DNA of 64,000 nucleotides from a candidate division TA06 bacterium (GTDB taxonomy: Bacteria; Edwardsbacteria; AC1; EtOH8): positions 1-64,000 of the forward strand of contig JACRJI010000016.1 in NCBI GenBank assembly GCA_016235665.1, read 5' to 3'. How positions within the stretch are numbered: the stretch's first letter is position 1; each line of letters opens with the position of its first letter. The position numbers and the translations under genes were made by a program. The notes beneath the pieces were generated by a model. That model did not search any database. It was not told the origin of the DNA and saw only the letters and a list, made by a program, of their open reading frames with translations. This document shows, piece by piece, positions 33,461 to 36,811 of the stretch.

Positions 33461-36400
33461 TCATTGTTCCACCCAGCAATGCTTGTACAACTCGGAACCA
33501 AAGGGCCGGGGCCGGAACCCGTGGACGGTGTTCCTGACTGCGGTGGATTTTACGGTGTGATACAGGAATACCCAGGGAGCCTCCTGCACTATCATCTCCT
33601 CTATCTTGCGGTAGCGCAGCAGCCTTTGGCCGGGATCGCGGATGGTAACGGCTTCGTCCAGCATTTCGTCTATGATCGGCGACTTGAAGAAGGCCACGTT
33701 GCCGGCCCGGCCTGTGTTCTTGGAATGGAACAGGGGATAAAGAAAATTGTCGGGGTCGCCGTTGTCCGAGTTCCAGCCGTTGAAGGACAATTGGGACTGG
33801 CAGCTGTAGGTCTTCTCCAGCAGGGCCTTCCAGCTTAAGGGGTTGATCTTGATGTTTATTCCCGCCTCCCGGCAGTTCTGGCGGACGATCTCGGCCCGCT
33901 GCATCTGGGCCTTGCTGTCCCGGATATCCAGCAGGTATTCCCCGGGCAGACCCCCGGCGTATCCGGCTTCGGCCAGCAGTTTTTTGGCCAATACTGGATC
34001 GTAACCGTAGCCCGCTAAATTTTGGTTGAAGGCCCACAGCTCCGGAGGAAAGACCCCCTTGGCCGCCACCGCGTCCCCGGCCAGTTCAGTGGTCTCTATC
34101 AGCGCTTTCTGGTCAACCGCATAGTTCAGGGCCTGGCGAACCCGTTTGTCGGCGAAGGGCGAGACCCGGGAAACATTGATGCACAGGTACTGGACGTTGA
34201 GCTGGGGCAGGCTGACCACCTTCAGGTTGCGGTCCTGGGAAAGAGCCCGGCGCTGCAGGCTGTTGACATTGGTGATATTCAGCCGGCCCGCTGCCAGGGC
34301 CTCGGTCTTCTGTTCATCTTTGAGGTCTATGGAATATTTTATCCCCGACAGCGATATCCGGCGCTCGTGGTAATGGGGATTGGGCTCCAGCTCCAGCGAC
34401 TTTCCGGTGTCCCATGATTTTAAGATGAACGGCCCCGAGCCCACCGGATGGCGGGAGAAATCCTGCGACCCGTCCTCCACCAATTCCCTGGGAACTATGG
34501 CGGCCATGGTGCAGGCCAGATTGGAAAGGAACGGCATGAAGGGATACTGGAGCACGATCTTGATGGCATAGTGGTCTATGACCTGAAGCCCGGAAACTTC
34601 CCGTGCCTTGCCCTGGCTGTATTCCGAAGCGCCCTTGATCATATCCACAAAAGGCTGGTTGGGGGATTTTATCTTCGGGCTTAACAGCCGCTCCAGGGAG
34701 TACTTCACGTCCGGAGCTATCAGTTCCCGCCCGTGGCTGAATTTTATGCCCCGACGGAGGTAAAAGGTCCAGCTTAAACCGTCAGGGGAGATCTTCCAGC
34801 GCCAGGCAATAGCAGGGACCACTTCGGACCCTCCCCCGAACTGGACCAGTCCCTCGAATATCTGGGCCGCCACTTCGTTGGAAGTAGCGTCGGTCATCAT
34901 GGCCGGATCCAGGGTGATGGGATCGGAACTGATGTCGGCCTTTAACCGGCCCCCAATATAATTTTTAAGCCCGGCCGATTCTATTTCCGCCCGGCCCAAT
35001 GAACCCATCCGTTCGAACCAGGCCAGGGAATCCCGGCCCTTAATCAGGAACCCCGAAAAACCCTGGAGCTTGGCTGACACCTCCCGATAGCTTTGGCTGT
35101 AATGGCTATAGCGGTCGAAGATTTCCTGGTGGCGCGACTGCTGACGGTCAATGCCCAAGCCGGCCTCGGCCACTATCTGCTCCATCCGCGCGCCGGAATC
35201 CCGGGCCAGGTCCAGTGATATTCTGGCCTGGGAAACCGATTCCAGGCTGGTGGCCATGATCTTCTGGGTCTGCCGGATGGTATCGCTGGTCTGGGAGAAC
35301 TGATCGGTGACCTGCTTCAGCAGGGGGCCTATCCTGGCCGAGTCGGCGGCCGCCTGCTGTGACAGGGCCTGGGCCTGGGCCACTATGCCCACAAAAGCTC
35401 CGCCCTCCTGGCCCATCTCGGCCACTTCCACAGCGGCGTAGAACGAAAGCAGTTTTATCTGCTCGGTAAAATCCTTGATGGCGGCGCCGGTCTGGGATAT
35501 CTCTCCCAGTTTGCCGGACATGCCTTCCCGGTCGGCCTCAAACTCGTCCAGCCAGGTCTTGACCCGGGCCAGATCGTCAAATGATCCGGTGAGCCCCTGG
35601 TTCATCTCTTCAAAATCCTGGCGGTTGCTGCCAATGGTCTGACTCATCCCGTCCAGGCCTGACTTGATGAGATTGATGTTCTCGAACAAAGCCTCCAGAT
35701 TGTGCCACAGGGTTCCGGCCAGTTCTTCCTCGGCCCCCAGAGCCGTTTTCTGCTCGTCCATGGTGGACTGCAGGTCCCGCCACCGTTCGGAGGCCGCCTG
35801 CAGTTTGGCTTTGAGCATCATCCAGTTGTTCCGGGCCTCGTGCAGGGCGGCCGGATTGCCGGCGGTTTCCCACAAACCCAGGGCTTCGTCCATCTGATTC
35901 TTGGCAAATTCCACCTGTCCCATTTCGCCGGTCTCGGTGGCCAGCGCCAGGGCCGCCACTTCCTGGGAGACCGACAGCCCTTCGGCACTCTGGGTGATGT
36001 TCTTCAGGCCGCCCACCAATTTATTCTCCAGCTCCCGCTGTTCCTTGGCCATCAGACCTATCCGGTCAAAAGCCTCCACCATTCCCTGGTTGGACTGATA
36101 AAGGGAACTCAGTTTGTCCTTCACCTTTTCTGCCCCCGATTTCAGCCCGTCCACCAGATGCCGGGATTCCAGCACCCCGGAGGACATCTGCTGGATCTTG
36201 TCCTTGACCCCCGTCGTCAGGGTGGGAACCAGGGAGGCCGTCTTCTCCATCTCTCCGGCCAGACGGCTCATATTCTCGGCTATCACCCCGAATCCTTTTC
36301 CCTTGCCGCCGGCGTGGAAGGCCCGGATCTCGGCGTTGCGCACCAATTGTTTTATCTTTACCGATAGACCGGCCATCAGACCGGCCAGTTTTTCCAGTTC

Positions 36401-36811
36401 GGCCGTGGTGGTAAAAAGGTCCTTCAGTTCCACCGCCGAGCGCTGGTAGCTTTGGTCCACCAATTCAAAGGAATCCAAAGCTCCTTTCAGCTGCTGCCCG
36501 GCCCTGGCTATCACCTGCTTGTACTCCTGGCTGTTCCCGGTAACCAGGGCCGAGGAATTGGCGATGGCATCCATCCCCTCAAAGGCCTCGGCCATGGCCG
36601 CCCCAAAATCATGGATATTGGCCAGGTGCCCCCGCTCCTCTGCGGCCAGGGCGCTGATGTTCATCGACAGATCCGGCAGTATCTTCAGGAACTCTTCTAT
36701 CTTTTTAAGCACATCAATCAGGTCGTCAGACGGCCTCCACCGGGCTTCGACCGGCTCCGGAATGTCCTGGATTGTCGAGGATGTTTTTGAGTTGGAATTG
36801 AATAGTTTCAT
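33461..36811 (-). CDS. MCP-like coiled-coil protein fused to a peptide/oligosaccharide-type solute-binding domain
   Basis: This 1116-residue protein has two unlike halves. Residues 1-~615 are long helices with two degenerate chemoreceptor hairpin tips: RNAEIRAFHAGGKGKGFGVI at about 158-177 and IKLLSFYAAVEVAEMGQEGG at about 452-471. Residues ~622-1116 are a full SBP_bac_5 (DppA/OppA-like) domain, from DISSDPITLDPAMMTDAT to the end, including FYLRRGIKFSHGREL and HPVGSGPFIL. There is no signal peptide, lipobox or membrane helix, so the protein appears cytoplasmic. MCP tip residues needed for CheA/CheW contact are poorly kept. Cytoplasmic SBP_bac_5 domains have a precedent in the regulator SgrR. 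The start at 36811 (MKLFNSNSK) has AGG 8 bases upstream. No chemotaxis or ABC transporter gene is adjacent. I infer an intracellular ligand sensor or scaffold. Confidence 0.85.
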   Translation of the reverse strand: MKLFNSNSKTSSTIQDIPEPVEARWRPSDDLIDVLKKIEEFLKILPDLSMNISALAAEERGHLANIHDFGAAMAEAFEGMDAIANSSALVTGNSQEYKQVIARAGQQLKGALDSFELVDQSYQRSAVELKDLFTTTAELEKLAGLMAGLSVKIKQLVRNAEIRAFHAGGKGKGFGVIAENMSRLAGEMEKTASLVPTLTTGVKDKIQQMSSGVLESRHLVDGLKSGAEKVKDKLSSLYQSNQGMVEAFDRIGLMAKEQRELENKLVGGLKNITQSAEGLSVSQEVAALALATETGEMGQVEFAKNQMDEALGLWETAGNPAALHEARNNWMMLKAKLQAASERWRDLQSTMDEQKTALGAEEELAGTLWHNLEALFENINLIKSGLDGMSQTIGSNRQDFEEMNQGLTGSFDDLARVKTWLDEFEADREGMSGKLGEISQTGAAIKDFTEQIKLLSFYAAVEVAEMGQEGGAFVGIVAQAQALSQQAAADSARIGPLLKQVTDQFSQTSDTIRQTQKIMATSLESVSQARISLDLARDSGARMEQIVAEAGLGIDRQQSRHQEIFDRYSHYSQSYREVSAKLQGFSGFLIKGRDSLAWFERMGSLGRAEIESAGLKNYIGGRLKADISSDPITLDPAMMTDATSNEVAAQIFEGLVQFGGGSEVVPAIAWRWKISPDGLSWTFYLRRGIKFSHGRELIAPDVKYSLERLLSPKIKSPNQPFVDMIKGASEYSQGKAREVSGLQVIDHYAIKIVLQYPFMPFLSNLACTMAAIVPRELVEDGSQDFSRHPVGSGPFILKSWDTGKSLELEPNPHYHERRISLSGIKYSIDLKDEQKTEALAAGRLNITNVNSLQRRALSQDRNLKVVSLPQLNVQYLCINVSRVSPFADKRVRQALNYAVDQKALIETTELAGDAVAAKGVFPPELWAFNQNLAGYGYDPVLAKKLLAEAGYAGGLPGEYLLDIRDSKAQMQRAEIVRQNCREAGINIKINPLSWKALLEKTYSCQSQLSFNGWNSDNGDPDNFLYPLFHSKNTGRAGNVAFFKSPIIDEMLDEAVTIRDPGQRLLRYRKIEEMIVQEAPWVFLYHTVKSTAVRNTVHGFRPRPFGSELYKHCWVEQ

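Follow-up and report, generated by a model that had tools for sequence, protein, structure and literature searches.

The open reading frame (ORF) at positions 33461-36811 on the minus strand of the window encodes a single product of 1116 amino acids (aa), the subject of this study. The window is the whole stretch of 64,000 nucleotides analyzed, positions 1 to 64,000 of contig JACRJI010000016.1 from a candidate division TA06 bacterium of the Edwardsbacteria (assembly GCA_016235665.1). The protein, hereafter the fusion, is an all-helical coil with two tips of the methyl-accepting chemotaxis protein (MCP) type, followed by an SBP_bac_5 domain as found in peptide-type solute-binding proteins (SBP). 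The features of the gene, all on the minus strand, are as follows.

33461..36811, minus strand: coding sequence of the double-hairpin MCP / SBP_bac_5 receptor (ORF; Pfam MCPsignal and SBP_bac_5; orthologues in 10/10 genomes of the phylum)
34976..36727, minus strand: helical signalling part, aa 29-612, two MCP hairpins in tandem with arms of about 140 residues (AlphaFold; Foldseek 2ch7_A)
36290..36340, minus strand: tip 1, aa 158-174 (RNAEIRAFHAGGKGKGF), holding 10 of the 13 invariant alignment columns
35411..35452, minus strand: tip 2, aa 454-467 (LLSFYAAVEVAEMG), with Y458 and E462 invariant in 24/24
33464..34954, minus strand: SBP_bac_5 domain of the dipeptide/oligopeptide type, aa 620-1116, without export signal (Pfam; PDB relatives including DppA, 1dpp)
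33764..33766, minus strand: D1016, equivalent of DppA D408 (D436 in precursor numbering), from the HMMER alignment to 1dpp; invariant in 24/24
33920..33922, minus strand: R964, probable equivalent of DppA R355 (R383 in precursor numbering) by alignment, with the register uncertain by one residue

A first-pass annotation of this DNA had described a cytoplasmic MCP-like coiled coil of about 600 residues in front of a complete SBP_bac_5 domain and had noted the lack of both a signal peptide and a membrane helix; each part of that description is borne out. MCPsignal scores above its curated Pfam cut-off (61.9 bits versus 34.6) in two stretches, the best at aa 431-567. SBP_bac_5 matches aa 663-1033 in the same frame (279.7 bits, E 4.9e-83), and PF00496 is essentially complete, with profile positions 1-366 of 368 covered. 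AlphaFold predicts aa 29-612 as one continuous helical run; the model of aa 1-613 has a pLDDT of 86.8 and a pTM of 0.67, and one of its hairpins resembles the T. maritima MCP 2ch7_A in Foldseek (TMt 0.83, rmsd 2.6, 287 columns). The first full-length model, built from 10 sequences, left the SBP domain unfolded, and its Foldseek matches are taken as family hints only. The peak hydropathy mean over 19 residues is 1.19 in the fusion, far under the 2.65-3.05 of membrane MCPs and the 2.11 of a lipoprotein-like SBP of the same genome; the fusion therefore has neither a membrane helix nor a signal peptide. Pfam and NCBIfam scans of the protein gave no match to a helix-turn-helix (HTH) DNA-binding domain.

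The fusion is conserved. It is present in 10/10 genomes of Candidatus Edwardsbacteria, all those retrieved for the phylum, and the 9/9 other genomes of the family carry it at full length with no internal stops and 42-92% identity to the window protein. These nine intact copies rule out the joining of two genes by assembly. The upstream in-frame extension to 36997, which could have held a corrected start with a signal peptide, is not shared by two congeners, whose open frames start near the same MKLF, and a mis-called start is rejected as well. The ratio of nonsynonymous to synonymous substitution rates between congeners is lowest around tip 1 (0.03-0.04), followed by the SBP domain (0.08-0.13) and the coil (0.13-0.18). 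Both halves of the protein are under purifying selection, and the low ratios indicate that the degenerate tips are maintained and not decaying.

Relatives were found by scanning contigs with a ten-row alignment, after a query with the single protein had matched nothing. Proteins of the same architecture, 1046-1125 aa long and 26-33% identical, occur in metagenome-assembled genomes (MAGs) of candidate division WOR-3/Stahlbacteria, and a few unplaced or doubtfully labelled MAGs carry it too. The fusion is thus conserved across at least two little-known bacterial groups. In quick trees made with no bootstrap, a branch with SH-aLRT support of 100 separates 29 fused SBP domains from 50 unfused ones, and among the hairpins all copies of hairpin 1 group together (97), as do those of hairpin 2 (93). 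The trees point to a single origin of the fusion in both groups. As each hairpin forms its own group, the tandem and its asymmetry predate the split between Edwardsbacteria and WOR-3. Descent of the fusion from DosM-like proteins was considered and is not backed by the hairpin tree, where support is limited.

A second fusion paralogue is found in Stahlbacteria (L162:2475-5738, L164:281-3142, L165:3603-6770, L166:3099-6284, L167:3013-6252 and L094:2039-5254). Its SBP domains nest within the fusion clade. Its tips are weaker still, the RNAxI..HAG motif being missing in 5/5 checked, and at several of its loci a coiled-coil protein of about 720 aa comes next in place of che genes. Two further candidates were set aside. 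An ORF of 915 aa in genome G033 proved to be an SBP-permease ORF; a 1280-aa ORF from Gemmatimonadetes (L106:3610-7452), in which the SBP domain starts near residue 800, overlaps two long ORFs on the opposite strand, and its N-terminal part may be spurious.

Within the coil, conservation is most pronounced at the hairpin tips. An N-terminal alignment of 24 sequences (10 Edwardsbacteria and 14 WOR-3-type) contains 13 invariant coil columns, of which ten lie in tip 1 and two in tip 2 (Y458 and E462), the last being L483. Tip positions are named here in what we take to be the numbering of E. coli Tsr, consistent with the residue names in the literature. In tip 1, N381 is kept in 24/24 and the equivalents of F396 and V398 are also kept, while L380 is changed to Arg, E385 to Lys, Arg, Thr or Met, and R388 to His. 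In tip 2, N381 is replaced by Tyr in 24/24 and E385 is kept in 24/24; R388 is kept in the 14 WOR-3-type sequences and is Asp or Glu in the ten of Edwardsbacteria. The contact residues of the Tsr type are therefore divided between the two tips, and the full set is present in neither. The general loss of tip residues that had been noted at first is in fact complementary between the tips and fixed in both groups.

Trimer contacts of Tsr include N381 and the locks between E385 and R388'. Each dimer of a receptor trimer turns one subunit toward the centre and the other toward the outside, and on the outer subunit these residues probably contact CheA and CheW. It can be hypothesized that a pair of hairpins in one chain would divide the inner and outer contact roles. 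A cleaner assignment, with tip 1 docking CheW and tip 2 forming the trimer core, is at odds with the listing of N381 among the trimer contacts and was given up; only the split of contact residues between the tips was kept. The second tips of DosM-like tandem receptors in two other genomes (L202:5495-7423, L201:758-2731 and L203:655-2682, in G343 and G036) have Gly or Thr-Gly in the N381 region, a change that parallels the Tyr asymmetry of the fusion.

The SBP domain can be aligned over its whole length with DppA, HbpA and their relatives (1dpp, E 5.3e-60). In DppA, D436 pairs with the amino group of the dipeptide and R383 with its carboxylate, in precursor numbering (PMC12136057). The amino-group Asp is D1016 in the window protein and is invariant in 24/24 fusions. 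R964 aligns with an Arg of HbpA and is off by one residue in the DppA alignment; an Arg is found at its position in 10/10 Edwardsbacteria sequences and 6/14 of the WOR-3 type. The oligo_HPY ATPase of peptide importers was found in 0/10 Edwardsbacteria genomes, which makes it unlikely that the domain feeds an importer. A peptide or peptide-like cytoplasmic ligand is our best guess, with the case for and against about evenly balanced. The suggestion of the first-pass annotation that an intracellular ligand is sensed by this domain and signalled through the coiled coil is probably right.

Elsewhere the window genome encodes a lipoprotein-like SBP_bac_5 protein that carries a TonB_C domain at its C terminus (L030:1424-3544, G000:C11), with similar frames of 690-750 aa in the other Edwardsbacteria genomes. 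Its gene adjoins one for an M19 membrane dipeptidase, with no peptide importer nearby. This odd pairing may indicate peptide uptake at the outer membrane.

In the WOR-3-type genomes the fusion opens an operon fusion-cheW-cheY-cheA-cheC-TPR, with genes mostly 0-13 bp apart or overlapping. The operon continues with DUF4388-like, TPR and roadblock genes; DUF4388 was assigned there by similarity of sequence and position, and the roadblock domains of one locus by Pfam. The encoded CheA has Hpt, dimerisation, ATPase and CheW domains, the operon-linked CheW is a single-domain protein of about 140-150 aa and not CheW3, and a WOR-3 member of the fusion family scores 93.1 bits with MCPsignal. On another contig of the window genome lies the orthologous operon, which encodes CheW, CheY, CheA, CheC, TPR, DUF4388, TPR and a pair of roadblock proteins and closes with a gene for the GTPase MglA (E 9e-80 against solved structures of MglA); no receptor stands at its head. 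The two operon versions share 70% identity in CheY, 55% in CheC, 34-36% in CheA and 35% in TPR. In most Edwardsbacteria genomes the receptor gene lies between murI and rluD, surroundings that tell little about its function. Most likely the receptor moved out of the che operon in the Edwardsbacteria line; the direction could also have been the reverse.

The CheA dimerisation domain occurs once in 8/10 Edwardsbacteria and 10/11 WOR-3-type genomes (18/21). The single cheA of those eight Edwardsbacteria genomes sits in the orthologous che operon, and in 10/11 WOR-3-type genomes the sole cheA is within a few kb of the fusion. From the loss of tip residues, the first-pass annotation had proposed that the partner is not CheA. 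That proposal is not supported: in WOR-3 the altered receptor heads the operon that contains, in 10/11 genomes, the only cheA. The fusion is thus very likely a chemoreceptor acting through CheA and CheW, and we infer that its coil binds both. A conserved cluster at L157 (G000:C8:293000-303000) and L160 (G005:C6:240000-250000) comprises two membrane MCPs with CheB-like, CheW-like and serine/threonine kinase-like genes. The cluster has no CheA of its own and may depend, like the fusion receptor, on the single CheA of the genome.

No methylation consensus was found in 18 of the 24 fusions, that of the window included, and the other 6 have one isolated site; ordinary or DosM-like control receptors gave 1-8 motifs in the same scan. 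Neither cheR nor cheB was seen in the linked operon, while cheC is present. With motifs mostly absent and no cheR or cheB in the operon, adaptation by methylation is doubtful for this receptor. None of the ten Edwardsbacteria genomes gave a FliM match, and in the 11 others (21 in total) FliM stayed below threshold; each Edwardsbacteria genome has 9-15 matches to ATPases of the T2SSE/PilB/PilT type. The presence of MglA and roadblock proteins in the operon makes surface motility or polarity the likeliest output, and an output of the MglA/pilus type is slightly favoured on this evidence.

We consider it reasonably probable, taking all parts together, that the fusion is a soluble, methylation-poor chemoreceptor for a cytoplasmic peptide-like ligand that signals through CheW, CheA and CheY to motility of the MglA/type IV pilus kind. 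The SBP_bac_5 domain would bind a small cytoplasmic ligand, likeliest a peptide or peptide-like compound, and its opening and closing would be passed to the coiled-coil base and relayed onward to both hairpin tips. The tips would anchor CheW, together with a CheA that is usually the only one of the genome, in a cytoplasmic array and would govern the activity of this kinase. CheA would phosphorylate CheY, and CheC would remove the phosphate. The output would run through the co-encoded TPR, DUF4388 and roadblock proteins, plus MglA in Edwardsbacteria, toward surface motility of the type IV pilus type or polarity, and not toward flagella. A more specific version, in which the two hairpins lie side by side as a pseudo-dimer with divided contacts, so that one asymmetric and largely methylation-free chain with a cytoplasmic peptide sensor would steer MglA/type IV pilus motility in phyla without flagella, is tentative and on present evidence rather doubtful.

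Several observations weigh against the proposed pathway. The receptor gene stands apart from the che operon in the window's own phylum, between murI and rluD, and CheA could have its main receptors among the further membrane MCPs of these genomes. MglA was seen solely in the Edwardsbacteria version of the operon. The tips are far from consensus, both in the three changes of tip 1 and in the Tyr at N381 of tip 2. The carboxylate-pairing Arg is lost in 8/14 WOR-3-type sequences, so that the identity of the ligand may vary or the ligand may not be a peptide. The first of these observations, together with the strong and fixed tip substitutions and the coiled-coil protein of about 720 aa that follows the Stahlbacteria paralogue where che genes might stand, would suit a regulator derived from a receptor whose degenerate tips bind a protein other than CheA. 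We regard this as improbable, since the tips of WOR-3 are altered nearly alike and yet the gene there heads a che operon with the sole cheA.

Alternatively, the protein could be a scaffold like DosM, with the hairpins pointing in opposite directions to form an extended rod, by which two CheA/CheW baseplates would be joined in a cytoplasmic sandwich array, the SBP domain serving as a spacer or interaction module in the middle of the rod, and other receptors doing the sensing. DosM is the closest described architecture and is a rod-shaped scaffold with a signalling domain at either end, 98% of its homologues have no sensor domain, and other MCPs are available in the same genomes. Nevertheless, the CheW of the operon has a single domain, in contrast to CheW3 of F9 systems; the complementary loss of contacts in tips 1 and 2 fits one shared bundle better; the SBP domain retains its invariant Asp for ligand contact and has a slower rate of evolution than the coil; and the fusion hairpins do not cluster with their counterparts in the DosM-like proteins found. 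A scaffold is therefore unlikely, although less so than a regulator with a non-CheA partner. An artefact of two joined genes, or a periplasmic peptide-uptake SBP with a wrongly placed start, could be suspected from the usual export of SBP_bac_5 proteins. This idea retains practically no weight. It is already refuted by the homologues, as 29 sequences from two groups share the fusion in one clade, and there is no signal peptide or membrane helix, no conserved upstream start and no peptide-importer ATPase.

The fusion, read as a CheA-coupled receptor, can be placed among known systems. DosM of V. cholerae is a rod whose two signalling domains sit at the opposite ends of a cytoplasmic F9 sandwich array; it partners with CheW3 and belongs to a family in which most members are sensorless as mentioned above (PMC7534058, PMC9321776). 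Two traits of the DosM class, tandem signalling domains in one chain and solubility, are present in the fusion, as is a cytoplasmic chemosensory setting. Unlike DosM, the fusion has a C-terminal SBP_bac_5 domain, a single-domain CheW and an operon with CheC, TPR, DUF4388 and roadblock genes; its genomes have no FliM above threshold, its methylation motifs are few or none, and its tips are asymmetrically altered. Among 386 genomes, the relatives spanning the full coil outside Edwardsbacteria are DosM-like proteins of 642-657 aa in two genomes (G036 and G343). G036 has an additional tandem protein of 675 aa, and CheW3-like proteins, seen beside DosM-like proteins of both G036 and G343, adjoin two of the three DosM-like or tandem proteins of these genomes.

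Single-chain chemoreceptors are known as the engineered Tsr~Tsr and as natural soluble examples (PMC4692393). Two hairpins in one chain can make a working equivalent of a dimer, which supports the pseudo-dimer model. Unlike the equivalent subunits of Tsr~Tsr, the tips of the fusion have diverged in opposite ways, and one cytoplasmic sensor is carried. Should the idea of divided tips be true, the fusion would be a natural counterpart of the single-chain receptors engineered to probe inner and outer subunits in the receptor trimer.

On the sensor side, the domain resembles DppA and HbpA in being full-length and in keeping the Asp that pairs with the amino group, and differs from them in that it is not exported, has no lipobox, and has no dedicated importer found in the phylum. 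The fusion also gives a weak NCBIfam match to SgrR, which we take to be a cytoplasmic regulator with an SBP_bac_5 domain and thus a precedent for a cytoplasmic sensor of this kind; in the fusion the DNA-binding HTH of SgrR is replaced by the chemoreceptor coil. An unrelated 9-Mb genome (G037) encodes a membrane-anchored MCP with a C-terminal SBP_bac_5 domain (L031:3821-7393). Its domain order is the same, so that its sensor would be cytoplasmic, but it has only one hairpin, whose tip is near-canonical, and two hydrophobic segments at its N terminus, with no che genes nearby, and its SBP domain falls outside the fusion clade. It is probably an independent fusion, and the order MCP-SBP has thus probably arisen more than once.

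No report of a fusion between SBP_bac_5 and MCP was found in the open-access literature, which is not proof of absence. The view of the first-pass annotation that no described receptor has this order agrees with that literature, and is to be narrowed in that double receptors such as DosM and the single-chain forms are known and that the G037 protein exists. The fusion represents a receptor class, fixed in two uncultured groups, in which a peptide-binding domain of the periplasmic type would serve a chemosensory array as its cytoplasmic sensor. For organisms that lack flagella it offers a candidate input to MglA-linked surface motility, and it probably lets such cells adjust surface movement to an internal peptide-like signal. 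The fusion belongs among the soluble chemoreceptors, and what is new relative to them is the added sensor, the different operon and the divided tips.

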